In this document: positions 24,611-40,454 of the stretch, one piece after another
Position numbering within the stretch: the first letter of the stretch is position 1
Layout: each line of letters opens with the position of its first letter
Assembly: GCF_001447995.1 (NCBI RefSeq)
Contig: NZ_LDPE01000001.1
Location: 2,166,299-2,230,298, forward strand
Length of the DNA stretch: 64,000 nt
Reading direction: 5' to 3'
Origin: Maribacter dokdonensis DSW-8
Lineage (GTDB): Bacteria; Bacteroidota; Bacteroidia; Flavobacteriales; Flavobacteriaceae
Position numbers and translations under genes: made by a program
The notes under the pieces: model-generated
Databases searched by the model: none
The model's input: the letters and a program-made list of their open reading frames with translations, nothing else
Told to the model about the DNA's origin: nothing

Positions 24611-27514
24611 ATGAGGAAACTATTAACGATACTACTATTTTTCGTCCTCCAGGTTTCCCTTGCGCAGAATTCCGTGAACACTAAAAGTTATCATGAAAGC
24701 TTTAAGGAGTTAATTTTTAAGAATCCGGATTCAGCTTTGTATTACATTAAAAAATTAAAGCTTGAAAAAGATGTAACAAATTCATTCTTTTCATCTTATT
24801 ATTATCATCAGAATCTAGGTCAATATTACTTCTTCACAGCTAAATTAGATTCATCTGAATGGCATTATAAGAAAGCTTATGATATCAGTATATTGAAAGG
24901 AATCGACTCTTTAATTATTGACAGTAATATTTGGTTGGCAAACCATGAATACTTTAAAGGTGAATCAAAAAATTCAATTTTGAGATATGAGAACATACTT
25001 GAACATTCAAAAAAAGCCAATTATTTAGAAGGCATAGCCTCCGCCTACTCCAGGTTCGCAGGTGTTGAACCTGACTTGAACAAAAAAATGAATCTTTATT
25101 TAAAAATAGATTCTCTTTATACAAATAACAACACCCAGTCTTCCTTGTTAGCTCGTGTTAAAGGATATATTGCAGAAATTTATTTAGACGCAAAAGGAAA
25201 CAATGATTTAGCCAAGAACTATATAGAACAATGTTTTACCATATCAAAAGAAGTTGATTATCCACCAGGTGAGTATGAAGCCAATAGACTTTTAATTAAA
25301 CTTGCCGTACAAGAAAATAATTTTAATGAAGCCATTCAATTATATAAACACCTATTAAATCAGGGTAACAAAATTGGAGACCCCACGGCAATTTCTGTTT
25401 CTACAATAGGTCTTGCCAAAATGTATTTCAAAAAAAAGGAGTTTGACAAAACAGAAAAATACCTGACCAACGTAGGATATTTAATAGAGAAACCAGAAGC
25501 TTCCACTTTAGCAGGAATAGTTCACTTGCATTGGGCAGAACTTTTTATTGCACTCAATGAACCTAAGAAAGCTTTGTTCCATTTAGAAAAAGCCCGAATG
25601 TATCCCGATGTTACTGATCTTTTAGGTTTTAAGAAGGAACTAAATAGGGTAGAAATTAATTATTATGATTTAGTGAGTGATTATGCAAACGCATACCAGA
25701 CTAAACTAGCTTACGACGAACAAGTCAAGTATCTCAATCAGCAAGAAAACGCCAACGGTTTTATATTAAATCAACAATTACGCTTTAAGGAGCAACAACA
25801 ACAAGAAGTAGCCCTTTTAAAAGCACAGTACGAACTGACCGATACGTTACAAAAAGCACATCGTAATTTTCTATTCGGAATCATAGCCTTTACTTCTTTA
25901 ATTGCCCTGTTAATCTTTGTTCTATATCGTAACAGAATAAAAGTGAATAACAAATTAAAAGAAGTTGACGCCTTAAAAACCGAATTCTTTACGAATATAT
26001 CTCATGAATTTAGAACTCCTTTAACTTTAATCTCGGCACCAATTCAAGAAGCACTGACCAATGCAAAACTCAGCAATGATCAAAGAAAGCATTTAGAGAT
26101 TGCTCAAAAAAGTACAGTAAGACTATCTTCTTTAGTAGATCAACTACTAGAATTATCTAAAATTGATAGCGGCAATAGAAAATTACGTGTACAACAAGGG
26201 TATGCCACCCAACTGATTGCAGCTTGGAGCGAGTCTTTTTCATTTCTTGCCTTGCAGAAGAATATAGATTTTAATCTTCAAATTTCAGATACCGATAAAC
26301 TGTGTTGGTTTGACCATAGTGCTGTAGAGAACATCGCCATAAATTTATTGAGTAATGCCATAAAATATACGCCAGAGAGAGGTACCATTCTTCTTAATAC
26401 GAAAATTGTTCAAAACCATTTGAATATTTCAATAAAGAATACCGGTAATGGCATTTCAACTAGCCAGATGAAAACCATTTTCAATAGGTTTTATCAGACA
26501 AGTGACCATAACGAAGGTGTAGGTATTGGTTTATCACTTGTAAAAGAACTTACTGAACTACATAGTGGCAAAATAAACGTGAGTAGCGATAAACTAAACT
26601 GGACACTTTTCAATGTATCACTATGTATAGATAAGAAAAAGCTTAAGAATATTGAGGTTATTAAAAGTATTGAGCCTAGAAATTCAAAAATTACTACAAC
26701 TACTGAATCTACAACTACTCAAGAAGAAATTTTAACTAAGAAAAATCTCCCCCTTTTACTTATAGTGGAGGACAATAAAAATGTAAGAACCTTACTTCAT
26801 AGTATCTTTAAAAACATATATAGTGTAATACAGGCATCTGATGGTGAAGAAGGTATTCAAATAGCACTTAATAAAATACCCGATATCATTATTTCAGACT
26901 TGATGATGCCTAAAAAAGATGGTCTAGAGCTTACAAAAACCTTAAAGAATGATGAACGTACCAGTCATATTCCCATTATACTTTTAACGGCAAAAGCTGG
27001 TGACGATCATGAATTAACGGGTATAGAATTTGGTGCGGATGATTATATTACAAAACCATTTAGTCAAAAAATACTAGAGCGTAAAACCGCTTCTTTGGTA
27101 GCGCTTAGAAAAAAGTTACAATTAAGGTACAGTCAAGAAATAATTCTTAGACCAAAAGAAATTGCGATATCGTCTGTAGATGAAAAATTCTTGAACAAAC
27201 TTCAAAAAATTCTTGATAACAAACTCATAGACCCCGCCTTTAACGCAGCTGATTTTAGTACTGCCATTCACATGAGCAGAATGCAACTCCACAGAAAATT
27301 AAAAGCACTTACAGGTCTCGCCACTACAGAATTCATACGTTCTCAACGTTTAAAACTAGCTACACAAATGCTAAAAAAACCTGGTATAAATATATCAGAA
27401 GTCGGTTATAGCGTTGGTTTCAACAATCACGCATATTTCAGCAAATGCTTTAAAGAAGTATATCATTGCACTCCCTCGGAATATATTTCTTCGCACAACA
27501 TCAAAACACAATAA
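24611..27514 (+). CDS. TPR-sensor hybrid histidine kinase/response regulator/AraC regulator
   Basis: The 967-residue protein combines a whole signalling path. After a signal peptide (to about 18), residues 30-405 form TPR-like helices in the periplasm; a transmembrane helix lies at about 419-438. The cytoplasmic part has HisKA with H465 ('ISHEFRTPLTLI'), HATPase ('NLLSNAIKYTPERG', 'GVGIGLSLVKEL'), a receiver with phosphoacceptor D763 ('SDLMMPKKDG') and Lys in 'TKPFS', and a C-terminal AraC helix-turn-helix pair ('MSRMQLHRKLKALTG', 'GFNNHAYFSKCFKE'). It differs from sugar-sensing HTCS proteins by having TPRs instead of a two-propeller sensor. The neighbouring envelope-protein locus downstream may be a target. 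Confidence 0.9.
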   Translation: MRKLLTILLFFVLQVSLAQNSVNTKSYHESFKELIFKNPDSALYYIKKLKLEKDVTNSFFSSYYYHQNLGQYYFFTAKLDSSEWHYKKAYDISILKGIDSLIIDSNIWLANHEYFKGESKNSILRYENILEHSKKANYLEGIASAYSRFAGVEPDLNKKMNLYLKIDSLYTNNNTQSSLLARVKGYIAEIYLDAKGNNDLAKNYIEQCFTISKEVDYPPGEYEANRLLIKLAVQENNFNEAIQLYKHLLNQGNKIGDPTAISVSTIGLAKMYFKKKEFDKTEKYLTNVGYLIEKPEASTLAGIVHLHWAELFIALNEPKKALFHLEKARMYPDVTDLLGFKKELNRVEINYYDLVSDYANAYQTKLAYDEQVKYLNQQENANGFILNQQLRFKEQQQQEVALLKAQYELTDTLQKAHRNFLFGIIAFTSLIALLIFVLYRNRIKVNNKLKEVDALKTEFFTNISHEFRTPLTLISAPIQEALTNAKLSNDQRKHLEIAQKSTVRLSSLVDQLLELSKIDSGNRKLRVQQGYATQLIAAWSESFSFLALQKNIDFNLQISDTDKLCWFDHSAVENIAINLLSNAIKYTPERGTILLNTKIVQNHLNISIKNTGNGISTSQMKTIFNRFYQTSDHNEGVGIGLSLVKELTELHSGKINVSSDKLNWTLFNVSLCIDKKKLKNIEVIKSIEPRNSKITTTTESTTTQEEILTKKNLPLLLIVEDNKNVRTLLHSIFKNIYSVIQASDGEEGIQIALNKIPDIIISDLMMPKKDGLELTKTLKNDERTSHIPIILLTAKAGDDHELTGIEFGADDYITKPFSQKILERKTASLVALRKKLQLRYSQEIILRPKEIAISSVDEKFLNKLQKILDNKLIDPAFNAADFSTAIHMSRMQLHRKLKALTGLATTEFIRSQRLKLATQMLKKPGINISEVGYSVGFNNHAYFSKCFKEVYHCTPSEYISSHNIKTQ

Positions 27515-27643: not shown

Positions 27644-27817
27644 ATGAAGAAAGACGATAATAATCTTAGAGGCTCAATTTACAGTTTACCTGAAAAGCAG
27701 ATTTACTTGAATATTAACCATTTAAAAGAAGGGCTTTACGTATTAAAGATTATTCATAACAATAAGGTGATCAAAAAAATATCGTTCCAAAAAAAGATTG
27801 ATGTTAACCTTTTCTAA
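27644..27817 (+). CDS. 57-residue protein resembling a type IX sorting tail
   Basis: The ATG frame at 27644 encodes MKKDDNNLRGSIYSLPEKQ... and then 'LNINHLKEGLYVLKIIHNNK' and 'VIKKISFQKK'. This last part looks like the final strands of the type A sorting domain of type IX secreted proteins (the GxYxLKI...KKIxxxK pattern), but there is no signal peptide and no cargo domain before it. The frame is open back only to 27608. It is either a remnant of a lost secreted protein or a small stand-alone protein. Its end overlaps a candidate ECF promoter at 27802. Confidence 0.45.
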   Translation: MKKDDNNLRGSIYSLPEKQIYLNINHLKEGLYVLKIIHNNKVIKKISFQKKIDVNLF

Positions 27818-27831
27818 AATCGTGTCATTAA
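27802..27831 (+). promoter_or_regulatory. Candidate ECF sigma promoter, site 1
   Basis: TGTTAACCTTTTC at 27802-27814 is identical in 13 bases to sites at 33699 and 39225. It is followed after 11 bases by CATTAA (27826). The ATG of the DUF4412 gene is 43 bases after the 13-mer. It lies within the 3' end of the 57-residue frame. Confidence 0.5.
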
Positions 27832-27857
27832 AAGACAAACGACAAAAAAAGAACATC

Positions 27858-28676
27858 ATGAGAACATGTAAACTAATAGCGATTTTGTTTGTATTCAGTG
27901 TAACTACCAATGCTAACGCACAATTTTTAAAAAAACTTAAAGAACGTGCCCAGGAAGCTGCAGCACAAACTATAGAGAGAAAAGTAGCTGAAAAAACAGA
28001 GCGTGAAACAGAAAAATCTTTCGACACCATCTTTAATAATAAAGGTAGAATATTTAAAAGTAAAAAAACTGAAAAACTTGAGATTTATACATTTAGTCAC
28101 GAGTATGTAATGGAAATTGAGAGTGATGGAAGCACGACCGACATCACCTACTATTTAACCAATGAAGATGAATATATAGGCAGCTCTTTTAATATGAAAG
28201 ATGCTTCTGAATTCGTAACCGTAATGGATTTACCCAATGAGGCTATACACACTTTCATGAATATGGGCGGACAGCGAACAACAAATTCCGTGAAATTAGA
28301 TCTAGAAGATGCGCCAGAACTGAATATGGACAGTAATGATTATTCGGTATCTAACACAGGCCAAACCAAAGATATTATAGGATATGAGTGTGATGAATAT
28401 CAAGTTACCGGTCCACAAATATCTGGTACTGTTTGGATAACACAAGATGCAGATATTTCATTTCATACCGCATACTCAAGTTTACGAACAAAGAAATTTA
28501 AAAACATAAAAAAAGGAATTGACCCATCATGGTTAAGTATAATAGACGGTTTGGTACTTGAAATGGATATGATCGATTATTCGCAGAAAAATGCGAAGCC
28601 AGTTCATATGATCTGTACACAACTGATAGAGAAAGACTTTAGCATTAACACTTTAGATTATGAAAAATTATTTTAA
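27858..28676 (+). CDS. DUF4412 secreted protein
   Basis: The product has 272 residues from ATG 27858, whose sequence MRTCKLIAILFVFSVTTNAN makes a signal peptide; a longer frame from 27798 would hide it. The mature part begins with a charged helix ('LKKLKERAQEAAAQTIERK'), then has the beta-rich DUF4412 domain with 'DIIGYECDEYQVTG' and 'VWITQDADISFH', which is the hallmark pattern of the family (a short conserved 'GY.C..Y' followed by a 'WiT..l' strand). Function is unknown. It is first in a four-gene tandem to 32699 and has ECF-like promoter site 1 upstream. Confidence 0.8.
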   Translation: MRTCKLIAILFVFSVTTNANAQFLKKLKERAQEAAAQTIERKVAEKTERETEKSFDTIFNNKGRIFKSKKTEKLEIYTFSHEYVMEIESDGSTTDITYYLTNEDEYIGSSFNMKDASEFVTVMDLPNEAIHTFMNMGGQRTTNSVKLDLEDAPELNMDSNDYSVSNTGQTKDIIGYECDEYQVTGPQISGTVWITQDADISFHTAYSSLRTKKFKNIKKGIDPSWLSIIDGLVLEMDMIDYSQKNAKPVHMICTQLIEKDFSINTLDYEKLF

Positions 28677-28686
28677 AACATTCAGC

Positions 28687-29307
28687 ATGAGACACAAATT
28701 AGCTCTTTTTTTTATTTCACTTTTAATTGCCTGTAACGACACCCCTAAAAAACAAGATACAAGCGAACCAAATACCAAACAGGTTATATCAGAAAAAGAA
28801 GAAAGCAGTTCAAATACCTCAGGCGATTACAGTTCTCTATATAATAATGACAATTGTGATATGAGTATCGCCGAATTGGCAGAAGTGCTCAAAGTACCGG
28901 AATCAAACCTTAATATACTGGACAAAATCGGTGAAAACAAGTGTTCTTTTGATTTGAAAGGGTTTGGCACAAATACTTTAGATGGTGACTCAAGAATAAC
29001 ATGGAGGTCTACACCTAGTTCAAAAAAACAGAACAAAAAAGAAATTGCCAGTTATTTGGAACGTAAAGAAGCTGGGTTAAAGATTATGGGAATGGATATA
29101 GAGATGGCAGAAACGGGCGATTCTTATATAGCACAACAACCCGCTCATGGAAGAATAATCATTTACAATGAAAATTATGATCAGGCATTATTAATGCACT
29201 ATGGAATTAAAAGTGCAAATACAGACCGCACCAAAGAGCAACATGAAGAGCTACGCCTTAAAATGACCGATTTGGCGAACTATTTATTGCAAAAACATAG
29301 AAAATAA
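28687..29307 (+). CDS. Hypothetical lipoprotein
   Basis: The 206-residue product starts at ATG 28687 (MRHKLALFFISLLIAC), giving a lipobox with Cys16; an ATG at 28660 would add nine residues and overlap the upstream gene by 17 bases, and cannot be excluded. After a Ser/Thr/Lys/Glu-rich linker the protein has a domain with 'CDMSIAELAEVLKVPESNLNIL' and two Cys in the region, with no family I can name. It is the second gene of the operon starting at 27858. Confidence 0.65.
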   Translation: MRHKLALFFISLLIACNDTPKKQDTSEPNTKQVISEKEESSSNTSGDYSSLYNNDNCDMSIAELAEVLKVPESNLNILDKIGENKCSFDLKGFGTNTLDGDSRITWRSTPSSKKQNKKEIASYLERKEAGLKIMGMDIEMAETGDSYIAQQPAHGRIIIYNENYDQALLMHYGIKSANTDRTKEQHEELRLKMTDLANYLLQKHRK

Positions 29308-29314
29308 TACGGTT

Positions 29315-30883
29315 ATGAGAACTATACTAATTTTAATTCTACTTGCATTTAGTAACTTAAGTAATGCCCAATTAACAGACTTCTTCGGCAAAACTATTGT
29401 ACATGAAATAAAACTTAACAAGTTAGATGACGGTACTTACGCTGGTGCCATGGAATGGACTACAGGTGGTGCAGATTCTTTACAAAGATTTATCATTAAC
29501 GGTTTAGATGTTAAAACACCTGTTATGGTAAGGATAATCTCAAAAGCTCCAGACCATAATATTGACTTAAGTTTTCATAAAGAGAGTTGGGAAAAAGTTG
29601 AATCGAAAGTTTCTACCAATGGGGAGAAATTTGTCGATAAAGTTTTTAGAACTATGAACACTGCTGGTATTGGAGTAAGTTCTGAGGTTGCAGAAATACC
29701 ATATTTAATTACTGTAAAGACTGGCTTACAATTTCCGTCAACACAATCCTTAATACGTTTTACCGATGATATTGAAGAGTACAATCAATATGTACAAACA
29801 CTAGGGGTATCTGGTAACATAATTTCCCTTGAGTCTCAAAAAGATTCAGAAGCTCCCGAAATCTCATTAATAAACAAAGTAGATAAAGAGAACAATTTAA
29901 TGTACATCATTATTGGGCTTTTAATAGCCATTATCATTTTATTCGTTTTGTTCATTTTTAAAAAACAAAAAACAAAAAAACTGTCCATTATAACTATTGG
30001 CATATGCTCTTTTGCAAACACCTATGCTCAATCTAGTCAACCAAGACCAATTCCTATATCTGATAAAGAGCCAGCGGTATTTATAGAGTATAGGTCAGAG
30101 AATGTAAGCAATCAAGTGCCTATTAATTATACAAGTCCAAATCACCGTCCTGCAGAAGACCGCACAGTACATTTAGAAGGGGATGATGGAACAACTCACG
30201 TAGTTAGACTAGAACCTAATCAAGGTTCCTTAGAATTATCAGGTGACGCCGCTGCCGCTGTTGAAAGAAGAATAAGAGAGGCAGATGAGCAGTTTAACGA
30301 AGATTATGGCGCTAATTCGCCTGGTGAACCAACAGAAAGTGATGCTAGAATATTACCTGATGATTTAATTCACGAAGAATTGGCAAGACTAAGAAACCAA
30401 GTTCGAAGATTACAAGCACAGGTAGATCTATTATCACAACAAGATCAACATCAAGAAGATGAAGGTGAAGATGAGGAACCCCCGATACTTGTATACTGTG
30501 AGGTTAAACAAGATTGCAAGAATTGTGCAATGAAGCCATTTAATAGATTTAGAAAAAGACATACCTATTTTATGCAATTACAGCGTTTTTATTATAGAAA
30601 ACGATCAGATCTTAATGCTGCAATTACTAGTGCTGATGCACTAGCCTCTGTTCCGGGCGCAGGCCTTGGATGGTCAAATATTAAATTATACCAAGTTCGA
30701 CCAGCTATGGAAAAATTAAAATTAGAATACGACAAAAAATTTAATCAATACATAAGTGATATGACCCTAGATATTCATGCTATCGAAGGTTGCCTAGCAA
30801 CACATTCGCAGACTACAAGTCTATTTAAAACTCAGGCTACACTTATGTTAGCCAATATGCGAACTTCAAGAATTACTTTTTAA
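29315..30883 (+). CDS. Membrane protein with two different halves
   Basis: I do not recognise this 522-residue protein. It has a signal peptide (to about 18, 'LSNAQ'), a periplasmic beta-rich domain (19-185) and a transmembrane helix (about 193-213). A second hydrophobic segment ('LSIITIGICSFANTYAQ', about 222-238) looks like a further signal peptide, after which come an acidic linker, a coiled coil ('LARLRNQVRRLQAQVDLLSQQ', in two parts around 360-380) and a basic, Cys-containing C-terminal domain (395-522). It may be two secreted proteins fused into one frame. It lies seven bases after the lipoprotein gene. Confidence 0.65.
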   Translation: MRTILILILLAFSNLSNAQLTDFFGKTIVHEIKLNKLDDGTYAGAMEWTTGGADSLQRFIINGLDVKTPVMVRIISKAPDHNIDLSFHKESWEKVESKVSTNGEKFVDKVFRTMNTAGIGVSSEVAEIPYLITVKTGLQFPSTQSLIRFTDDIEEYNQYVQTLGVSGNIISLESQKDSEAPEISLINKVDKENNLMYIIIGLLIAIIILFVLFIFKKQKTKKLSIITIGICSFANTYAQSSQPRPIPISDKEPAVFIEYRSENVSNQVPINYTSPNHRPAEDRTVHLEGDDGTTHVVRLEPNQGSLELSGDAAAAVERRIREADEQFNEDYGANSPGEPTESDARILPDDLIHEELARLRNQVRRLQAQVDLLSQQDQHQEDEGEDEEPPILVYCEVKQDCKNCAMKPFNRFRKRHTYFMQLQRFYYRKRSDLNAAITSADALASVPGAGLGWSNIKLYQVRPAMEKLKLEYDKKFNQYISDMTLDIHAIEGCLATHSQTTSLFKTQATLMLANMRTSRITF

Positions 30884-30893
30884 TTGAAATGAT

Positions 30894-32699
30894 ATGAAAA
30901 AAATAATTCTATTTATCACAGTAGCTGTATTCATTGCATCCTGCAGCGAAAATCCTAAAAATAAAATTTCAGATGAAAATTTAGAAATTGAATCTGACGA
31001 AAGTGGTGATAAAACACAACTTTCATCAGATGAATTTGAAAAGTCAATGGAGCAATTAGGGGGACTCTTTAGTATAGACAGTGAGGATGAAAGCTCTAAT
31101 AGTGAATTGCCAGAAGTAGAAGCACTGGAAAAACTACTACAAATGAGCGGCATGGAAGACCAAGGTACTAAGAAGGCATTTCAAGATTTGTTAACTAAAG
31201 ATGTCTCTTCATCAGGTATGTTTTCAACCGAAGCAATTATCTCACTTTTAGAGCAAAGTGGCGTTTCTCGTACTGAACTGCAAAAACTCATCAATAATCC
31301 AGACAGTCTTCAAGCCTTGGTGCAAGAAGTAGAAGCAAAAAGGAAGCTAGAAAAACAAAATGAACCAAAACCAAAAGCGAGAATCAATAAAGAACAACTA
31401 ACTTCAAAAAATACCCCTACTGGAGTTTCTTTGGAAGAGGCCATATTAATCGTTCAAGCTGAATCAGGACCAGAGGCAACAATGGCAAAACTTAAAACAA
31501 TCGATTCATTGGCGGGCACCAATGTTATGGAAAAATTGGATTTGACCGAAGCGGAATATGTCATGAGAGATATAGAGCGAAAACACGAAACTCCGCCCAC
31601 CGCGAAGGAAGAAGAGGAAATGGAGTTGCTTAACAAGCTATCAGGGCAACTACATAGTGACAAAGAAGCGAAACAATTGCTGATAGATCTTAAAAAGACT
31701 GAAAGTGAAATTGCTTCCGGTAGTCTTAAAGCAAGTCCTGCATATCAGCGGACCATAGAAGGCAAAGCAAAAATCGTTCAGATTTATAAGAATGATCTAG
31801 AAAGAAAGGCAAAAGCCGCAAAACACAAATTTCAAAAACTGAACCCGGACCTTTATTTTGGGGAGGAGTCGGAAGCAACTTATTTGGGCCATAGGAGAAA
31901 GGCCGTATATCTGCCCCTGGGCAAACTCTCGTTTGCAGATGCCGTTGTAAAAGCAAATCATCCCTTGTTAAAAACACAAGAAGTGAAAAATGTACTGGGC
32001 GAACCAGATGTATGGCAAGGTTTTGACATGGAAGATATTACGGGAATTCATAGCCTTGGACTGGGTGGTACCATTACTGTACAATTTACAGATAATGCAT
32101 TGACCGATGTCAATGGACCTGACCTTTATATTTTTGAAATCGGTCAGATTGAACCTACCGATTTGGAAATATCCAAAGATGGAAAAAATTGGATTCATGT
32201 AGGTAAAATTGATGGCGGTGTTGCCGAAGTAGATATTTCATCCTTTGTAAAACATGGCGAACTATTTTACTATGTACGCCTAACCGATTTAAAAATGGAA
32301 AGTGGTCTGCCAGGTGCTGATGTTGATGCCATTGCTGCAATTGGAGCAGCTATGCGCCTTAATCTCGACAGTAAAGTACTATTTGAGACCGGAAAATCTA
32401 TCTTAAAACCAGAAGGAATAGTTGCTTTGAAAGAATTGGCACATAACATCGCCGTGCTTAAGAAAGGGAATGTAATTGTAGAGGGCCATACCGATGATGT
32501 GGGCAGTGCAGAAAGCAATCAAAGACTTTCTTTGGAAAGAGCCAAAAGTGTTTCTAACGAACTAAAAAAAATGATTTCAGGAAGTAGTTTTCGTTGGAAA
32601 GAAATGGGATTAGGCGAATCCAAGCCTTTGGTTGAAAATGATACAGAAGAAAATAGATCAAAAAACAGACGCGTGGAAGTTTTAGTATTACCGAATTAA
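30894..32699 (+). CDS. OmpA-family lipoprotein with embedded beta-sandwich domain
   Basis: The 601-residue product has a lipobox ('VFIASC', Cys17), a long acidic helical region (20-300), a beta-sandwich-like domain (about 340-490, with 'GLGLGGTITVQFTDN' style motif split as 'LGLGGTITVQF' and 'DVNGPDLYIFEIG') and a C-terminal OmpA domain (495-601) with 'LFETGKSILKPEGI', 'VEGHTDDVG' and 'NRRVEVLVL'. The OmpA part should bind peptidoglycan and anchor the outer-membrane lipoprotein; the middle domain resembles galactose-binding-like folds in exported proteins. It is the last gene of the operon that starts at 27858. Confidence 0.82.
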   Translation: MKKIILFITVAVFIASCSENPKNKISDENLEIESDESGDKTQLSSDEFEKSMEQLGGLFSIDSEDESSNSELPEVEALEKLLQMSGMEDQGTKKAFQDLLTKDVSSSGMFSTEAIISLLEQSGVSRTELQKLINNPDSLQALVQEVEAKRKLEKQNEPKPKARINKEQLTSKNTPTGVSLEEAILIVQAESGPEATMAKLKTIDSLAGTNVMEKLDLTEAEYVMRDIERKHETPPTAKEEEEMELLNKLSGQLHSDKEAKQLLIDLKKTESEIASGSLKASPAYQRTIEGKAKIVQIYKNDLERKAKAAKHKFQKLNPDLYFGEESEATYLGHRRKAVYLPLGKLSFADAVVKANHPLLKTQEVKNVLGEPDVWQGFDMEDITGIHSLGLGGTITVQFTDNALTDVNGPDLYIFEIGQIEPTDLEISKDGKNWIHVGKIDGGVAEVDISSFVKHGELFYYVRLTDLKMESGLPGADVDAIAAIGAAMRLNLDSKVLFETGKSILKPEGIVALKELAHNIAVLKKGNVIVEGHTDDVGSAESNQRLSLERAKSVSNELKKMISGSSFRWKEMGLGESKPLVENDTEENRSKNRRVEVLVLPN

Positions 32700-33205
32700 T
32701 TGCTCAAGCACTTTCGAAGGAAAAGAAATTCTATTTGCTAATCTTAACTTTTGTTATTGGAGCAAATCAGGCAAATTCCCAATCAATACTAATAATTTGA
32801 TAGGCGCTTGAGAATTATTGGAAATATCTTCTAAGGTTAAACAGAACAATATATTACTTAGCCTTAACTGTAGATATATGAGCTACAATGATAATTATAT
32901 ACACATTCTACCATTTATAACTTAAAGAAAATATCAAAGCCAAGAATCTATATAAGTGATTATTGTAGAAGATAAAAATATAAGCAACCGCTCATTTAAG
33001 TCAAGAATATGGAACATTATATACCAGACATGAATGGTATTTGATGGCTTTAAAGGCCGTTGTAAAAGAAAACTTAATCAAAAAAACTGATAATTTTTTA
33101 ATAAGAATTTTCTATAGCAATAAATTCTTCCTAATAAAAAACTTGTAATACGTTAACCAACTAATTGGAAAGTCTATAACTTTTTCGAATTTCTAGCAAA
33201 CTTGT
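32700..33205. other. 506-base gap, mostly empty
   Basis: No convincing open frame, RNA gene or strong terminator is visible on either strand. A partial match to the local ECF-type motif, GTTAACC at 33152-33158 with CTATAA 15 bases later, lies before the lipocalin-like gene at 33206. The rest is AT-rich and may hold remnants of a decayed gene. Confidence 0.4.
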
Positions 33206-33613
33206 ATGAATAAAATACTTCCATTTTTATTAACTGTTATATGGGTAGGCATCTGTGCCTGTTCATACTCCCAATCTACCCAAGAAGCTTTGTTAGGTAA
33301 ATGGCAATTAGTAAGTAGCAGTGGAGGCATTACTGGAAAAGGGTTCCCCATAAAAAAGAATGCTATAATAGAGTTTACTGCAGACTATCAATACTTAAGT
33401 TTTGAGCAAGATTCCTTAGAACAAAAATCCACATATTATCTTACAAAATCTCTTTCAAAATATCGCAAAAAAGATAGTTTAAACATCTTACTAATAGGGT
33501 ACGGAGATTTTAAGAAATACGAATTGTATATAACTAAAACCAGATTGATATTACGCGAACCATATACCGATGGTTTCACTCGTGTTTATATTCGAGAACT
33601 CAAAAAGAAATGA
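33206..33613 (+). CDS. Lipocalin-like exported protein
   Basis: The 135-residue product starts with a signal sequence (to about residue 22; 'ICACSYSQ' could be a lipobox or a normal cleavage site). The mature part begins 'EALLGKWQLVSSSGG' and continues with alternating strands such as 'AIIEFTADYQYLSF' and 'KYELYITKTRLILRE', the pattern of the small lipocalin-like proteins common in Bacteroidota. It may bind a small hydrophobic molecule. A weak ECF-type promoter match lies 48 bases before the start. Confidence 0.7.
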   Translation: MNKILPFLLTVIWVGICACSYSQSTQEALLGKWQLVSSSGGITGKGFPIKKNAIIEFTADYQYLSFEQDSLEQKSTYYLTKSLSKYRKKDSLNILLIGYGDFKKYELYITKTRLILREPYTDGFTRVYIRELKKK

Positions 33614-33698
33614 AACTTTCCTTTGTACATATTTTTAAAAGTTAATTAGATATGACCTTAATTATCTATAAATAAAGTTTAAAAAAGACAATTAAATC

Positions 33699-33729
33699 TG
33701 TTAACCTTTTCATATTTCAAACATAAAAG
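33699..33729 (+). promoter_or_regulatory. Candidate ECF sigma promoter, site 2
   Basis: TGTTAACCTTTTC at 33699-33711 is followed after exactly 10 bases by CATAAAAGG (33722). The start codon of the secreted protein at 33766 is 54 bases after the 13-mer. Spacing between GTTAACC and CATAAA is 15 bases, in the range for ECF promoters. Confidence 0.55.
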
Positions 33730-33765
33730 GGAAATAATAATTAATAATCATTTAAACAAAAAATT

Positions 33766-34311
33766 ATGAAAACAATTTTAAGTGTAATTGCAATCGTTAA
33801 TATGGTCGTTTCATTACAGGCCAATGATGTAAAAATTCATCATAAATATGTGAAAGAAAATACAGCGATAAAAACAATGAATCCTGTAAATATTTCAAGC
33901 ATAATAGATGATGTATTGAGTAAGAAGGGTTCGTACAATATGACCGGTTCTTTAACTATTTTAGATACTTCCAAATCTGGAAACGAAGTTCAAGCCCTAG
34001 ATCTTTCATTTCGTAATAGTCCTGTTATTGCTTATAAAGGACGAGATTATATTCAGGCAAATCCTCAGGCCCTCAGAAATGATAACAATAGAAAAAACGA
34101 GGTTCGTGTATATGTACACCACGATACTAAGGGTAACGTGAACACCAAAAACGTAAAACTAAATTGGAAAAGTGGGTCAACAGGCGAAATTGTCGGTATT
34201 TTAAATAACGTTTCGGTATTATACCAAAAAAATAGCATTCTAATTACGGGTTCTTTCCAGAAAAACGGCTATATCGTAGGTGTAAGTCTTGCCATATCTA
34301 AAGTAGCCTAA
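33766..34311 (+). CDS. Secreted hypothetical protein, possible paralogue of 39906 gene
   Basis: The 181-residue product has a signal peptide (to about 19, 'VSLQAN'). The mature protein is beta-rich with 'GSYNMTGSLTILD', 'KNVKLNWKSGSTGEI' and 'NSILITGSFQKNGYIVGVSLAI'. Length, order of strands and the C-terminal 'I/FITGSxxx' segment resemble the protein at 39906, so the two may be distant paralogues. No function is known. It carries the clear promoter site 2 and is probably controlled by the ECF sigma factor encoded at 38598. Confidence 0.65.
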   Translation: MKTILSVIAIVNMVVSLQANDVKIHHKYVKENTAIKTMNPVNISSIIDDVLSKKGSYNMTGSLTILDTSKSGNEVQALDLSFRNSPVIAYKGRDYIQANPQALRNDNNRKNEVRVYVHHDTKGNVNTKNVKLNWKSGSTGEIVGILNNVSVLYQKNSILITGSFQKNGYIVGVSLAISKVA

Positions 34312-34523
34312 AATTAAATAAGGACTTAGCATTCAATTATTTAATTGAAGTTTACAATTTAATCCGTGTACGGTATTTATGAAAAAAAATTGTTACATTC
34401 TTTACAGCACGTGTTACATATGTAGTAGGTCTTAAAAGCTAAACAATATATTTTTGATAATACCTTACCCTCGTTAAAAACTGAATGCTAAGCCTTTAAA
34501 TAAAACTTTAAATTTACTACATC

Positions 34524-35096
34524 ATGAAATCAAAACTATTATTAATTATAATGTGCAGTGTGGTTTTGTGCGCCTGCGATAAAGATTTTACAGGAACCAT
34601 TACAAACAAAGAGAAAATAGAACTAACCAGCGAAAATTTTATTTATGAAGGTGACCTAGAAAAATATTATATAAATAATGAAATTCAACTTATAGATACT
34701 AAGTTAGAGAAAGCCACAGAAGAAGAAGCTGAAGAATTACTAATTGTAAAAGATGAATTGAAACAACGTTATGCCCAAATCTTGAGTTTTGATGAAGTAA
34801 CAAAAAGATGGCCAATACCTTGTGACATGCCAAATGGTAAATGCGTTCCAGTAAGGTTTGAATACTTTATATTCAGCAGTAAATTTTCTCAAATAAAATG
34901 TACCATAAGTAGCATTAATGGAGAAGTATTAACAACTATAGACAAATTGACCCCATTACCGGGGGAACCACATTTACAATATTTGGAAATCAATGCCAAG
35001 GGTTTTGGTGATCAAATTAATATTCAAATTGAAAAAACTGATGAATTTGGAGATACTTTAAACTATGAACAAAGCTTAGGTTTTTTAAAGATTTAG
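34524..35096 (+). CDS. Hypothetical lipoprotein
   Basis: The 190-residue protein has a lipobox ('VVLCAC', Cys at about 18), a charged helical stretch ('IDTKLEKATEEEAEELLIVKD', in two turns around 50-70) and a beta-rich C-terminal half with two Cys close together ('PCDMPNGKCVP'). I know no family for it. It is 37 bases upstream of the TPR-CHAT gene on the same strand, so it may be co-expressed with it and could be a partner or a substrate, but there is no direct evidence. Confidence 0.6.
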   Translation: MKSKLLLIIMCSVVLCACDKDFTGTITNKEKIELTSENFIYEGDLEKYYINNEIQLIDTKLEKATEEEAEELLIVKDELKQRYAQILSFDEVTKRWPIPCDMPNGKCVPVRFEYFIFSSKFSQIKCTISSINGEVLTTIDKLTPLPGEPHLQYLEINAKGFGDQINIQIEKTDEFGDTLNYEQSLGFLKI

Positions 35097-35133
35097 TATT
35101 TTAATGTAATGGCTCCAAAATTCAAGAAGCCCT

Positions 35134-37884
35134 ATGCCTGTGTTGAAGAAAATATTTTACCTAATTTGCTTTTGTCCCATTTGTTTGTGGTCACAACAAT
35201 TAACACTTTCAAAAATAGATTCGTTAAATGAAAAAGCAGAACAGTTCTATTATTCCGAAAAAGATTCTGCCTACTTCTATTTTGACCAGGTCAAAGAAAT
35301 TGCAAAAATGATTAATAGCGACTCTATACTTATAGAGTCGCTATTTAATTCTACGGGAGTTTCTAGTTATCATTACGATTTAATTAGAATGAGCGCCAAT
35401 CTTAACCAACTAGATTCTCTAATTTCCGGTACAACTATTTTAAATACAGACAACTCAAATATCCTGTTGTATTACAAAGGTGATTATCATCTAAAATTAT
35501 TAGAATACTCCCAATCACGAGAAGCCTTTGAAAAGATTATTAAGAACAATAATTCATTAACTACAAAAAGTGAAACCATTACAAGTTTAGCCTCTGCTGC
35601 TTATAGCTTCCTCGGCAAACTTTATATGATAGAGGGTAAATATGACGAAGCCAAGTCAGTATACAGAAAAAACATAAGAGATATCCAAAAATCAGAAAAC
35701 ATTGATTTAGAAGCGTTAACAGGTAATTATAATTTGCTTGCAGAAGTATTAATAAAAGAAAAAAAATATAAAGAAGCGAACACCTATTTGCTTAAGGCAT
35801 ATGCTTATAACAAAAAAGAAGAAAATATTAATTCTGCGATTTCTAATGCATTTCATATTGCCGAAAACTATGGTTATCAATTACAAAAAGATAGTGCCCT
35901 TTTATTTTTAAATGATTCTAAAAAATTATTTGAAAACAAACCTATATTTCAGGTAAAATACCATTTAAAAAAAGCAATTATCCATAAAAATAATTGGGAA
36001 TATGAAATTGCCATAATTGAAATTGATTCAGCTATAAATAGTATCAAACAAAATTTTGAAAAACAAAAAAACGCTGACTTAGAAATTGCTTACAATGAAA
36101 AAGGGCTGCTTCAAAACCTATTGGGTTTTCACGAAAAGGCATTAATAAATTTCGATTTAGCACTTCAAACATCCTTAGATAAAAAGGATAAGGATCCAAA
36201 CGCCCTAAAACTATTTAAAAACAAGGCTACGACTTTAAATTTAAACAGAGATATTGAATCTTACTTAAAGGCAACTGCGGTGGCAAAACAGGCAACAATT
36301 TTTCTTAATCATATAAAACCAAGTTTTAAAAATTCTACCGATAAATTATTTTTAATAGAAAATGCTTATCCAATTTTCGAAACCGGAATAGCATCATCTC
36401 AAAACTTATATAATTCATCTAACGATGATATCTATATAGATGAAGCTTTTCAATTCTCTGAAAATAGTAAATCCGTCTTATTGCTAGAAGCTCTATTATC
36501 TTCCAAAGCCACAGAGTTTGCTAAAATTCCAAAAGAAATATTGTTACGAGAAACTCAATTAAAAGCAGAAATTACACATATTGAAAAAGAAATCGCCGTT
36601 TCAGAAAATTTAGAAGAAGGAATAGAAGACCAGCTATTTAGCCTTAGGCAAGAACTTCGTAATATGGTAGTAGATATAGAAACCAATTACCCGGCATACT
36701 ACAACTTAAAGTACAACAATAAAATACTAACATTACCAGAAGTACAAAATAACCTAACAAAGAATGAACTCTTCATTTCCTACTTCTATGGTAACCAAAA
36801 TATTTATACAATTGCTATTTCTAAGAATGATAAGTACTTTCATAGTATCAAAATCACGGATGAACTTGAAAATCATATTAGTGAACTTCATGCAATGCTC
36901 TCGAATTCTAAATCAAACCTAGATTCACTTTCCAAACTGAGCCATAAACTGTATCAAAAACTATTAAGTCCAATTTTAGAATTACATCCACAAGAAAAAA
37001 TCATACTTGCCCCAGATGGCTTGTTAAACTATATCCCTTTTGGCAGTCTGGTTTCCAATGAGACAGAGCATCGCTACTTGATAGAAGATAGAACCATCAG
37101 TTATGTGAACTCAGCTACATTATGGTCTCAATTAAATAACAAAGAGCAAAACAGTGCTAACCTACTAGCATTTGCGCCTAGTTTCGATACTAATATACCT
37201 TCAGACGGCACTCGTTCTCAAGTATTGGGCAATTTACCGCACAACAGAAACGAAGTTCAGCAGATATTGACATCTTTTACCGGTAAGTCCTTTATCAATG
37301 ACCAAGCTACACTTCAAAATTTCACTGCTACATTGCCGGATTATTCGGTCTTACATTTGGCAACACATGCTGTTTTTGATGATAAAAATCCCGAATATTC
37401 TTATTTAGCCTTTACTCCAAAATCAGAATCTGACGACTTGCTTTTTGTAAAAGACCTATATAATTTAACCTTAAATGCCAGTCTCGTTACCTTAAGTGGG
37501 TGCGAAAGTGGCATTGGTGAACTTAAACGTGGCGAAGGTTTTTTAAGCCTTGCCAGAGGTTTTTTCTACAGTGGCGCAGCAAGCATATCAAGTACATTAT
37601 GGAAAGTGAACGACAATTCATCTTCGGAGCTTATGGGAGAGTTTTATGAGAATTTAGCTAATGGAAAACCAAAAGATACATCATTAAGGGAAGCTAAACT
37701 ATCCTTCTTACAAAAGAACAAAGAGAACGGACTTGCACACCCCTACTATTGGTCAGGTTATATCATTCAAGGAAACACCGAGCCCTTAATTACCTCTCCG
37801 CATTGGCAATGGTATGTGTTTGCTGTAATAGCGGTTCTTCTTATTTTCTTGAACAGAAAAAGACTAGTTCAACTTTTCAAGTAA
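35134..37884 (+). CDS. Exported TPR-CHAT caspase-like peptidase
   Basis: The 916-residue protein begins with a signal peptide (to about 21, 'CLWSQ'), continues with TPR helices (30-420), a linker coiled region (450-530), and a CHAT (caspase HetF associated with TPR) domain at about 600-880. The catalytic dyad is present: H745 in 'HLATHAVFD' and C790 in 'LSGCESGIG'. A transmembrane helix (893-911) followed by basic residues anchors the C-terminus, placing TPR and CHAT parts in the periplasm. Its 3' end overlaps the convergent anti-sigma gene by 21 bases. By analogy with TPR-CHAT proteases that free sigma factors it could cleave the anti-sigma protein encoded next to it. Confidence 0.87.
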   Translation: MPVLKKIFYLICFCPICLWSQQLTLSKIDSLNEKAEQFYYSEKDSAYFYFDQVKEIAKMINSDSILIESLFNSTGVSSYHYDLIRMSANLNQLDSLISGTTILNTDNSNILLYYKGDYHLKLLEYSQSREAFEKIIKNNNSLTTKSETITSLASAAYSFLGKLYMIEGKYDEAKSVYRKNIRDIQKSENIDLEALTGNYNLLAEVLIKEKKYKEANTYLLKAYAYNKKEENINSAISNAFHIAENYGYQLQKDSALLFLNDSKKLFENKPIFQVKYHLKKAIIHKNNWEYEIAIIEIDSAINSIKQNFEKQKNADLEIAYNEKGLLQNLLGFHEKALINFDLALQTSLDKKDKDPNALKLFKNKATTLNLNRDIESYLKATAVAKQATIFLNHIKPSFKNSTDKLFLIENAYPIFETGIASSQNLYNSSNDDIYIDEAFQFSENSKSVLLLEALLSSKATEFAKIPKEILLRETQLKAEITHIEKEIAVSENLEEGIEDQLFSLRQELRNMVVDIETNYPAYYNLKYNNKILTLPEVQNNLTKNELFISYFYGNQNIYTIAISKNDKYFHSIKITDELENHISELHAMLSNSKSNLDSLSKLSHKLYQKLLSPILELHPQEKIILAPDGLLNYIPFGSLVSNETEHRYLIEDRTISYVNSATLWSQLNNKEQNSANLLAFAPSFDTNIPSDGTRSQVLGNLPHNRNEVQQILTSFTGKSFINDQATLQNFTATLPDYSVLHLATHAVFDDKNPEYSYLAFTPKSESDDLLFVKDLYNLTLNASLVTLSGCESGIGELKRGEGFLSLARGFFYSGAASISSTLWKVNDNSSSELMGEFYENLANGKPKDTSLREAKLSFLQKNKENGLAHPYYWSGYIIQGNTEPLITSPHWQWYVFAVIAVLLIFLNRKRLVQLFK

Positions 37885-38601
37885 TTCTGTTGCTTCATTC
37901 TTCTTATATGTTCCCATTTTTATAAGTTGCTCCAATAATTTTTCAGCTTCTTCTTCCTGTTCTAATTTTAGGTTCGCGAGCGCTGCATACCAATAGCCCT
38001 CATCTTTATACTCGCTATTTATTAATATAATTTCTTGGAATTTATCTGTGGCTTTTAAATAATCTCCCTTGGCAAGATAAGCTTGACCTAAATAAAAATC
38101 TACATAATCTAGTCTGGTCTTTTCCTTTAACTCAGTGAGGTAGGCAATAGCAGTTTCAAAATCATCAGTTTCGTAAGCTTCAAAGGCTAAGCGCTCCAAT
38201 GACTTATCAGTAGCATCGCCACGTGTAATTGTATATACCGTATTAGGGTATTTCTCATAATTGGAAGCATACAATTCTTCTGTTCCATGAAACATATAAG
38301 AATTAAATACAAACCAACTTAAACCTATTAATAAGGCAATACTAGCAGCTATTCTTAATGGTTTCCAGAAATTTTGTTGATTCTGGCTAGGTGCACCGCT
38401 TAATTCAGATTCAAAACCTTGTAGCTTTTTCTTAAGACTGTCATTTTCAATTTTTCGTACAACAGATTTTACATTCTTTTCAAATTCAAACTGCATTTTA
38501 AATTCTGCATCACTTTCTAAAAACTGGTTGAAATTGACCTTCTCATCTGCGGTCAATGAACCTTCAAAATATTTTAATAATAATTGTTCTTTATCCATCA
38601 T
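37864..38601 (-). CDS. Anti-sigma-like membrane protein with periplasmic TPRs
   Basis: The 245-residue protein has a cytoplasmic N-terminal helical region (1-80: 'LLLKYFEGSLTADEKVNFNQFL', a pattern shared by Bacteroidota anti-sigma factors), one transmembrane helix (82-102) and a periplasmic part with three or four TPR units ('AIAYLTELKEKTRLDYVDFYLGQ', 'ATDKFQEIILINSEYKDEGYWYA', in sequence). It is encoded directly after the sigma factor with a four-base ATGA overlap, the usual sigma/anti-sigma arrangement. Its last 21 bases overlap the end of the TPR-CHAT gene. The role as anti-sigma factor is inferred from layout, as no zinc motif is present. Confidence 0.75.
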   Translation of the reverse strand: MMDKEQLLLKYFEGSLTADEKVNFNQFLESDAEFKMQFEFEKNVKSVVRKIENDSLKKKLQGFESELSGAPSQNQQNFWKPLRIAASIALLIGLSWFVFNSYMFHGTEELYASNYEKYPNTVYTITRGDATDKSLERLAFEAYETDDFETAIAYLTELKEKTRLDYVDFYLGQAYLAKGDYLKATDKFQEIILINSEYKDEGYWYAALANLKLEQEEEAEKLLEQLIKMGTYKKNEATELLEKLN

Positions 38602-39170
38602 AATTTGGGGGCATTTTTAATGGCTTCCTTTAATGTTTTTAAACATCTGGATTTCTGACTTTTTACCACATTTTCACTGTTATAATTACCTTCGGTCATA
38701 ATTTCTTTGATGTTATACTGTTGGTAATAGAATAGCTTTAATATTTTTTGACATTTTTCTCCTAAAGCATCAAAGTACTTTTTTAATAATTTTTGTTCAG
38801 TTGACAAAGCATAATTGTCAATATCAAAAGCTTCGATTTCGTCATCTATTTCTTCTACGTTGTTCAATAATAATTCATTGTTCGTATGCTTATTTCTGTT
38901 TCGTAATCGCTCCATAATCTTATACTTACCTATACTAATTAGATACGTACTTAAAGAGCTTTTTAAAATCGTTAATTTTCCATTCTGAATATTCTCATAC
39001 AGTGCAACATACGCATCTTGGTAAGCATCTAAAACCTCTTCATCTGCCAGGGAATACCTTCTTGCAAAATTCAAGAATAATTCACGATTCTCTTCATATA
39101 CCTTTTTAAAAGCAGATTCAGAACCTTCTTTAAGTGCTTGTAATAAAGTTTCATCTGAATGATTTTCCAT
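38598..39170 (-). CDS. ECF-type RNA polymerase sigma factor
   Basis: The 190-residue protein has sigma region 2 (about 15-85, with 'FLNFARRYSLADEEVLDAYQDAYVALYENI') and region 4 (about 128-185, with 'LGEKCQKILKLFYYQQYNIKEI' followed by a helix-turn-helix 'NSENVVKSQKSRCLKTLKEA'). The order and lack of other regions make it an extracytoplasmic-function sigma factor. It is divergent from the secreted protein gene at 39280, whose upstream DNA carries the strongest candidate promoter, and precedes the anti-sigma gene. It probably reads the three TGTTAACCTTTTC sites of this locus. Confidence 0.87.
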   Translation of the reverse strand: MENHSDETLLQALKEGSESAFKKVYEENRELFLNFARRYSLADEEVLDAYQDAYVALYENIQNGKLTILKSSLSTYLISIGKYKIMERLRNRNKHTNNELLLNNVEEIDDEIEAFDIDNYALSTEQKLLKKYFDALGEKCQKILKLFYYQQYNIKEIMTEGNYNSENVVKSQKSRCLKTLKEAIKNAPKL

Positions 39171-39224
39171 TTAATGCATTTACGGATAAATAGTTAACAC
39201 TTAAAAGTAAAGAATTAAAGTGAA

Positions 39225-39255
39225 TGTTAACCTTTTCTTGCTATTAGCATGAATA
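39225..39255 (+). promoter_or_regulatory. Candidate ECF sigma promoter, site 3
   Basis: TGTTAACCTTTTC at 39225-39237 is followed after exactly 10 bases by CATGAATAG (39248). The ATG at 39280 is 42 bases after the 13-mer. The site lies in the gap between the divergent sigma factor gene and the secreted-protein gene, where an autoregulated ECF promoter is expected. Confidence 0.55.
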
Positions 39256-39279: not shown

Positions 39280-39876
39280 ATGAAAATAGTAACCTTCTTA
39301 TTTATATGTACAGCATCAATTATCATGAATGCGCAACTAGTACTTGATGATTTTACCACTGGTGAAATCAACCATTTGACATTTACCGATATGAATGAAA
39401 ATAGAAAACTACAAACAGGCAATCACATCATAGGTCAGCACCGGCAGGTTTTTGCAAAGCTCAATCAAAACCCTTTTGAACACAACATGCAATTAAGTAT
39501 AAAAAAAGGGCTACTCGTCATGAGCTACGGTTATGACACCAGGGGTACAACTTATTTAAATTACGGAGTCAATAAAAATGGAAATGCGCCACTAAATATA
39601 GATGCCAGCAAATACAAGTCTTTAAAAGTAGAATTTGAGGCTAAAAGTACGGTAAACGGTATAAACTTGAATCTTTTTACAAATACCACTTATGCTGCAT
39701 ACGGCAAACATGTACCGGCTCGCGAAGGAAAGTTCGTCTTTACCATTCCGTTTTCAGAAATAAAGCCAACCGGCGATGATTTTACATTTTCCGATATTGA
39801 TTTTATAAGGTTACAATTCGATTCAAGAAGTAAAACCGGTTGTAACATGGCAATATCAAAAATTTGGTTCGAATAA
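39280..39876 (+). CDS. Secreted hypothetical protein, carbohydrate-binding-like fold
   Basis: The 198-residue product has a signal peptide (to about 19, 'IIMNAQ') and a beta-sandwich pattern: 'LVLDDFTTGEINHLTF', 'KYKSLKVEFEAKS', 'GKFVFTIPFSEIKP' and 'DIDFIRLQFDSRS', ending in 'KIWFE'. This resembles CIA30/CBM11-like galactose-binding folds, though no binding residues can be named. It begins 29 bases before the next gene's start after its stop and has ECF-like promoter site 3, so both genes probably form one induced transcript. Confidence 0.65.
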   Translation: MKIVTFLFICTASIIMNAQLVLDDFTTGEINHLTFTDMNENRKLQTGNHIIGQHRQVFAKLNQNPFEHNMQLSIKKGLLVMSYGYDTRGTTYLNYGVNKNGNAPLNIDASKYKSLKVEFEAKSTVNGINLNLFTNTTYAAYGKHVPAREGKFVFTIPFSEIKPTGDDFTFSDIDFIRLQFDSRSKTGCNMAISKIWFE

Positions 39877-39905
39877 ATATTTAATAAACTATAAAAACAG
39901 AAATT

Positions 39906-40454
39906 ATGAAAAATTACAAGAAAACCATTTTATTAGGGGTATTCGCATTAACAGTATGTTCTTTCAAAGTTACCAAGGCAGCAGACAACCCAGAAGTAAT
40001 GAAATCATCTGTTACTTGCGAAAATTTAGCGTACGACAATGCCGTTTTTGAACGGTTAGTGTCCAAAATAAATGAGGGATACATTTTTAACGCGCATATA
40101 AGCTCATCAACAGTTAAAAAAGATGGTAACGTAGAATTACCCTTTACAACATTTGGCTCAGGACCTTTAAACTTGAAAAAAGGAGATATCGTAACAGTTG
40201 ATAATGTAAAAACCGCTTTTAATGACCGAAACAATTTTCAAAGTAAAAAGACTGTTGAAAGCTTATCGATTACATCTTCTGGAAGCAATGTGAAAGTAAA
40301 AATGAACTTTCATACCTGGAGTCAGAACGTAGAACTTTCTAATGTAAAAATCACAAAAGAAAGGTTTGGATACTTTATCACCGGATCACAGTCAAATAGT
40401 ACCAAAACAGTATATTATACTATTACCATTTCTCACAGAGGAAAACTTATTTAA
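39906..40454 (+). CDS. Secreted hypothetical protein, possible paralogue of 33766 gene
   Basis: The 182-residue product has a signal peptide (to about 25, 'VTKAAD'). The mature protein is beta-rich, with 'IFNAHISSSTVKKDGN', 'NVKVKMNFHTWSQNVEL' and 'GYFITGSQSNSTKTVYYTITI'. It resembles the 33766 product in length and strand order. It follows the 39280 gene by 29 bases and ends before a terminator, closing a two-gene operon under promoter site 3. Function is unknown. Confidence 0.65.
   Translation: MKNYKKTILLGVFALTVCSFKVTKAADNPEVMKSSVTCENLAYDNAVFERLVSKINEGYIFNAHISSSTVKKDGNVELPFTTFGSGPLNLKKGDIVTVDNVKTAFNDRNNFQSKKTVESLSITSSGSNVKVKMNFHTWSQNVELSNVKITKERFGYFITGSQSNSTKTVYYTITISHRGKLI

Follow-up and report, generated by a model that had tools for sequence, protein, structure and literature searches.

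Which regulator, if any, reads an identical 13-nucleotide sequence (13-mer) that stands before three genes for secreted proteins in the flavobacterium Maribacter dokdonensis DSW-8? The three copies lie in a stretch of 64,000 nucleotides (contig NZ_LDPE01000001.1 of assembly GCF_001447995.1, positions 2,166,299 to 2,230,298 of the forward strand; hereafter the window), and a preliminary description assigned them to a neighbouring gene for an extracytoplasmic function (ECF) sigma factor. From sequence comparisons, we consider it very probable that TGTTAACC(TTTT)-N15/16-CATNAA is a promoter read by this sigma factor, forming the core of a promoter regulon. The elements in question, the first three located by a two-box pattern search, are the following.

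27802-27831, forward strand: putative promoter TGTTAACC-N16-CATTAA, before the genes at 27858-32699
33699-33727, forward strand: putative promoter TGTTAACC-N15-CATAAA
39225-39253, forward strand: putative promoter TGTTAACC-N15-CATGAA, in the divergent gap
39171-39199, reverse strand: the sigma factor gene's own motif, TGTTAACT-N15-CATTAA, with one mismatch in the -35 box and the ATG directly after it
38598-39170, reverse strand: ECF sigma factor gene (Sigma70_r2, TIGR02937)

An exact search agreed with the preliminary description in finding the 13-mer, TGTTAACCTTTTC, at 27802, 33699 and 39225, always on the plus strand, and the window contains no further mismatch-free copy. The window contains 3 exact copies and the 4.43-Mb genome 4, whereas a first-order Markov model built on the window, with both strands counted, predicts 0.007 and 0.5. 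The second boxes and the distances of 42-54 bases to the ATG that had been described were also borne out by reading the sequence: CATTAA follows after 11 bases at 27802, CATAAA after 10 at 33699 and CATGAA after 10 at 39225, and the end of the 13-mer is separated from the ATG by 43 bases (gene at 27858), 54 bases (33766) and 42 bases (39280). The minus-strand copy ahead of the sigma factor gene had been missed in the first reading. The genome-wide search that had been suggested as a check gave a divided answer. Its loose pattern, taken as GTTAACC-N14-17-CAT, is unspecific, with 27 genomic matches, fewer than the 88 of the reversed control; the full form, TGTTAACC-N14-16-CATNAA, has 6 genomic sites against 2 for its reversed control, so that for this form the many equally good matches that would have spoken against a regulon are absent. 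All 6 sites precede genes with export-like N termini, as judged by inspection, and they include the distant sites C3:134694, C3:135513 and C1:1165124. The fourth exact genomic copy of the 13-mer, C9:74216 (L004, L083), was rejected as a promoter because it lies within a coding frame and has no second box. We also set aside the partial copy at 33152: its letters are present as described, but its second box is off-form, and no such copy stands before the homologous genes in four loci (G016, G001, G004 and G006).

Among genomes, the occurrence of the motif follows that of the sigma factor gene. We compared 60 relatives, of which 11 have a sigma factor homologue (50-100% identity; in one, G024, the match covers residues 6-105 of 190 and lies on a short contig), 26 are congeners without it and 23 belong to other families. 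The pattern TGTTAACC-N14-16-CATNAA occurs at 63 sites in the 11 sigma-positive genomes (4-7 each), at 10 sites in total in the 26 sigma-less congeners (0-1 each) and at 8 in total in the genomes of other families (0-2 each); the difference between the 11 and the 26 has a Mann-Whitney p of 3e-7, uncorrected for kinship of the genomes. In a wider survey of 149 genomes of the family with the pattern TGTTAACCT-N13-15-CATNAA, the nine genomes matching the sigma factor at E <= 1e-76 hold 47 sites, at least one in each, and the 127 without a match at 1e-30 hold 16.

We also examined the neighbourhoods of orthologous sigma factor genes, using an alignment of 13 sigma proteins as the query and taking the best 80 of 242 loci. 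These loci come from Maribacter, Zobellia, Aquimarina, Lacinutrix, Bizionia, Arenibacter, Muriicola and other genera, one being titled Cytophaga sp.; four of them (L095-L098) overlap contigs of the genome comparison (G016:C2, G015:C31, G004:C9 and G006:C15), so counts from the two sets are not summed. With the second box written as [CT]ATNAA, the motif occurs 319 times, compared with once for the reversed control, and 77 of the 80 loci have at least one copy. For 286 of the 322 sites in these loci and the window, an ATG frame 50 or more codons long begins within 200 bases; in 215 it lies 35-75 bases from the motif start, with the second box ending 8-46 (mostly 22-36) bases before the ATG. A spacer of 15 is found at 184 of these 215 sites, whose consensus is TGTTAACCTTTT, about 11 free bases and CATWAA, with a T/A tract upstream. 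Proteins here are ATG frames called by script, and an export-like start, as scored by a crude hydropathy rule, was found in 205 of the 215 motif-linked proteins and in 750 of 1288 background frames (those in the same loci that are 120 codons or longer, among them regulon members and spurious frames).

What would such a regulon control? The candidate target genes in the window are these.

27858-28676, forward strand: DUF4412 protein, first of four closely spaced genes
28660-29307, forward strand: lipoprotein-like gene (N terminus by inspection), second of the run
29315-30883, forward strand: third gene of the run
30894-32699, forward strand: OmpA-domain protein, fourth of the run
33766-34311, forward strand: exported protein, family not known, first gene after the 33699 promoter
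34524-35096, forward strand: lipoprotein-like gene, directly before the CHAT gene described below
39280-39876 and 39906-40454, forward strand: two exported proteins after the 39225 promoter

The genes at 27858-32699 are probably an operon of the 27802 promoter, and the pair at 39280-40454 is probably an operon of the 39225 promoter; the operon extents proposed earlier are plausible, the genes overlapping or being closely spaced. Five orthologous Maribacter loci retain the 27802-type site, which lies 54-56 bases ahead of the homologous gene, and the 39280/39906 pair is kept in four (G016, G001, G015 and G004). Eight relatives of the gene at 34524 have the motif directly ahead of them in other loci. 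Away from the window, the sites at C3:134694 and C3:135513 precede lipoprotein genes with GPQGEQG-type repeats (the one protein tested matches Pfam Collagen, E 8.7e-9), and C1:1165124, a site kept in G004, precedes a gene with an export-like start. The sigma factor would thus read promoters in its own neighbourhood (those of the 27858 run, of 33766, of 39280-39906 and, probably, of its own gene) as well as two or more distant ones, and all of these targets appear to code for exported proteins. Across the 80 loci, collagen-like lipoproteins are the largest motif-linked group (76 proteins from 47 loci, 63 of them with at least four consecutive G-X-Y triplets); kelch-type, DUF4412, OmpA-domain, subtilase and beta-barrel proteins are others.

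The distribution of two target families bears on the link to the sigma factor. Collagen-like proteins (E <= 1e-10) occur in 10 of 10 sigma-positive genomes and, among the 26 sigma-negative congeners, in 4. For the 27858 protein, relatives with at least 62% identity were found in six genomes, all sigma-positive, and weaker ones (30-47%) in both kinds. In sigma-positive species, a site lies within 300 bases upstream of 6 of 9 matches to the 27858 protein and of 14 of 24 collagen-like matches, 20 of 33 in total (the collagen-like gene of G015 being counted as two matches). At homologues of the same genes in sigma-negative congeners, a full site on the gene strand was found at none of eight loci. 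Taken together, the motif follows the sigma factor gene across genomes and across the 80 loci, and it is absent at homologous genes where the sigma factor is absent, which supports the ECF regulon that had been proposed.

The protein itself is recognizable as an ECF sigma factor. It matches Sigma70_r2 with 32.5 bits (cut-off 24) and TIGR02937 with 64.8 bits (cut-off 42.9, residues 20-183), and the profile of its family matches the SigW chain (E 1.7e-7). Region 4 gave no separate Pfam match at 1e-3; the TIGR02937 match extends to residue 183. The two-box motif, TGTTAACC plus CATNAA, carries AAC in its -35 box, as ECF promoters are expected to do.

How, then, might this sigma factor be controlled? 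Two further genes accompany it.

37864-38601, reverse strand: membrane TPR protein, probable anti-sigma factor (R127 codon at 38221-38223)
35134-37884, forward strand: TPR-CHAT protease, Pfam CHAT (H745 at 37366-37368, C790 at 37501-37503)

The genes for the sigma factor, the membrane TPR protein and the TPR-CHAT protein are a conserved three-gene cassette. The TPR gene follows the sigma factor gene directly in all 80 loci; a CHAT gene lies near the sigma factor gene in 79 (split over two frames in L112 and L121), and the convergent pairing is kept in 75. In the window, the 3' ends of the CHAT and TPR genes share 21 bases (37864-37884), as they do in several orthologous loci. The TPR protein comprises about 80 residues, predicted to be cytoplasmic, a single membrane helix (from hydropathy and a structure model that has low confidence in this region) and a TPR domain. 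Single hhalign comparisons of its N terminus with those of other sigma factor partners gave 94, 59 and 10%, the first perhaps being of the same family. The TPR-CHAT protein (Pfam CHAT, E 2.8e-65) has a signal-peptide-like start and a C-terminal membrane helix by inspection; its catalytic H745 and C790 are kept in all 77 alignment rows with letters at these positions, one row being gapped, and the predicted fold of its CHAT domain is nearest to craspase Csx29 and separase.

We propose that the membrane TPR protein holds the sigma factor at the membrane, and such sequestration is probable. The periplasmic TPR-CHAT protease would then cut the TPR protein outside the membrane, leading to its destruction and freeing the sigma factor, a step for and against which we see the case as evenly balanced. 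The linker between the helix and the TPR domain is among the most conserved parts of the TPR protein: N120 and R127 are each present in 80 of 81 sequences and are invariant in a set of 65 that includes the first 13. Because this linker is near-invariant, and because separases, gingipain-R and MALT-1 are described in PMC4626109 as taking an arginine before the cut, R127 is a possible cut site; that the cut falls after it is doubtful.

The sigma factor gene also carries the motif in an unusual place. A motif on the sigma factor strand, with its -10 box abutting the start codon, was found in 70 of the 80 loci, in the window and in G001. Together with G016 (the same contig as L095) these make 73 entries, with up to one mismatch allowed in the -35 box, which among the 80 loci is exact in 57 and has one mismatch in 13. 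In all 73 entries the -10 hexamer ends between 1 base before and 1 base after the start codon boundary (ATG in 50, GTG in 23), and none has a site with the start codon up to 60 bases further down. An in-frame stop lies immediately 5' of the start codon in 39 of the 70 loci, an upstream in-frame start codon is present in 4, and in-frame ATG, GTG or TTG codons occur within codons 2-25 in 44, at scattered positions. RNA polymerase usually starts 5-8 bases downstream of a -10 box, so RNA directed by the sigma factor would begin at about codons 2-4 of its own gene. Such RNA would yield no sigma factor from this start codon, and it could still carry the anti-sigma gene; polymerase bound there might moreover block a basal promoter of the sigma factor gene. 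Since sigma factor output would not be raised in the usual way, the arrangement suggests self-limiting control, and we tentatively propose that sigma-driven transcription at its own gene limits the sigma factor. The TPR gene begins -8 to +10 bases relative to the end of the sigma factor stop codon in 75 of the 80 loci, and with the two genes so close their translation may be coupled, which would weaken the part of the proposal that concerns the anti-sigma gene. An A-tract with a TTAAATTAG-like element, conserved about 11-27 bases before the sigma factor promoter in L095-L174, is perhaps the basal promoter.

The main alternative to self-limiting control is that the start-codon promoter gives an ordinary leaderless message and hence positive autoregulation, which is also possible. 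Leaderless messages are known in flavobacteria, accounting for 5.5% of the mapped mRNAs of Flavobacterium psychrophilum in the data given in PMC9723704. With the -10 hexamer at the start codon boundary (within 1 base) in 73 of 73 entries, however, the start would be expected downstream of the ATG, given the usual offset, and regulon genes with the same two boxes have 8-46 bases, mostly 22-36, before their ATG. If self-limiting control is correct, this would be feedback of an unusual design, with the promoter of a sigma factor gene set exactly on that gene's start codon and conserved from genus to genus.

Several observations weigh against parts of the interpretation put forward here. The sigma factor's own promoter in the window has the -35 mismatch noted above, three of the 80 loci (L169, L173 and L174) have no full site, and 13 of the 33 homologue matches in sigma-positive species lack a site within 300 bases, these being mostly divergent homologues far from the sigma factor gene or genes later in a run. 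Thirteen genomes of the 149 have weaker sigma factor homologues and only 6 sites, mostly none, from which we conclude that the promoter code is confined to a single clade within the sigma factor family. Domain searches named no curated anti-sigma domain in the N-terminal part of the TPR protein. One locus, L119, has an intact CHAT catalytic pair but no arginine corresponding to R127, and the conserved linker may serve contact instead of cleavage. Lastly, among 296 genomes across the phylum, 21 have a sigma factor match at 1e-25; at 25 sigma factor loci of this search, with 1.5-kb flanks, the CHAT profile matches 8 and the TPR profile 20, so the pair of sigma factor and TPR protein is wider than the visible CHAT neighbourhood.

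Could the 13-mer instead be the binding site of another regulator? The nearest candidate, which contains a DNA-binding domain, is encoded next to the 27802 site.

24611-27514, forward strand: hybrid histidine kinase with an AraC-type domain (domain scan)

G016 and G015, however, lack its gene at this position and yet retain the 27802 site; the spacing of the boxes and their orientation ahead of ATGs are constant, and the presence of the motif follows the sigma factor gene, so that a site for this or another such regulator is very unlikely. Even less credible is an origin of the copies by chance or from a leader that was once duplicated. Copies in the window with up to two mismatches are indeed not in excess (6 found, a shuffle mean of 4.5, and 28 of 100 shuffles reaching 6), but the exact copies lie far above expectation, the bases between the boxes differ, and the sites are found in many genera and ahead of genes for unrelated protein families; the genomic counts (6 against 2), the locus counts (319 against 1) and the empty sigma-negative loci (0 of 8) already contradict this explanation. 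A more serious rival accepts the regulon but sees the CHAT protein as an output, or as the partner of some other component, instead of the activator of the sigma factor; we regard this as quite possible. Pairs of sigma factor and TPR protein without a visible CHAT neighbour exist elsewhere in the phylum, L119 keeps its CHAT protein without the linker arginine, and the CHAT gene may itself be a regulon member, because a site lies within 2.5 kb upstream of it in 25 of the 80 loci. Set against this are the convergent CHAT pairing in 75 of 80 loci, the retention of the catalytic residues, and the fact that the best-matching solved proteins, Csx29 and DdvA, both act in sigma/anti-sigma circuits.

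Regulated proteolysis of the RseA/DegS type is named in PMC10028731. In such systems an envelope signal reaches an ECF sigma factor through a cut membrane anti-sigma factor, as we propose for this locus; DegS, however, is a serine protease, and the candidate activator, whose gene adjoins that of the sigma factor, would be a cysteine protease of the CHAT type. Another parallel is the CASP/craspase system, described in the same source as comprising the TPR-CHAT protease Csx29, the inhibitor Csx30 and the ECF-like CASP-sigma: as there, a TPR-CHAT protease, a candidate sigma inhibitor, an ECF sigma factor and sigma motifs share one locus, and Csx29 is the first match of the predicted CHAT fold. 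By contrast, no protein of a clustered regularly interspaced short palindromic repeats (CRISPR) system, neither Cas7-11 nor Csx30, was found among the 20 window proteins scanned with Pfam; the protease and inhibitor here appear, by inspection, to face the periplasm, and the candidate inhibitor is a membrane TPR protein. DdvS/DdvA of Myxococcus xanthus (PMC4374960; PDB 8rot/8rw5) likewise involves, as presented there, a membrane anti-sigma factor of an ECF sigma factor and a CHAT domain. DdvA is the best sequence match of the CHAT domain among solved chains (E 2.7e-4) and joins anti-sigma factor and CHAT domain in one chain, where the window has two convergent genes (35134-37884 and 37864-38601). 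Separase (a clan CD protease; PDB 5fc2 and others) is a eukaryotic cohesin protease, and the identity is low (16%). The SM6 promoters of F. psychrophilum are described in PMC9723704 as an ECF-type class, here from the same bacterial family, with a CGT box at -10 and type IX secretion targets; the motif studied here has CATNAA and precedes other exported proteins. Our literature searches, which covered open-licence papers, brought up nothing that we recognized as the cassette or the motif.

For an ECF clade present in many genera of Flavobacteriaceae, the analysis thus provides a candidate promoter code together with a list of targets and a cassette that probably serves for control. A CRISPR-free locus that unites an ECF sigma factor with a candidate membrane anti-sigma factor and a TPR-CHAT protease makes the question of the protease's substrate testable, and suggests that ordinary envelope signalling systems include relatives of the craspase circuit. 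The complete picture, in which the promoter fused to the start codon is a conserved negative feedback and a periplasmic caspase-like protease cuts after R127 as a CRISPR-free counterpart of craspase, is unlikely to be right in every part.

Four smaller observations concern the surroundings of the regulon. Two weaker paralogous cassettes (L080 of G030 and L081 of G036) have GTTAACCTTTTTG upstream with a differing second box (about AACTAA), which, in these two examples, hints at diverged promoter codes. A relative of the kinase encoded at 24611-27514 lies near the CHAT gene in L121. The adenylate/guanylate cyclase-type protein at 40641-41729 (forward strand) adjoins the regulon and has a relative at that place in only one, G004, of five close orthologous loci. 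A small frame at 27645-27818 (forward strand) ends at the 27802 promoter, which sits in its 3' end, and the encoded tail, GLYVLKIIHNNKVIKKISFQK, appears to resemble a type IX secretion sorting domain.

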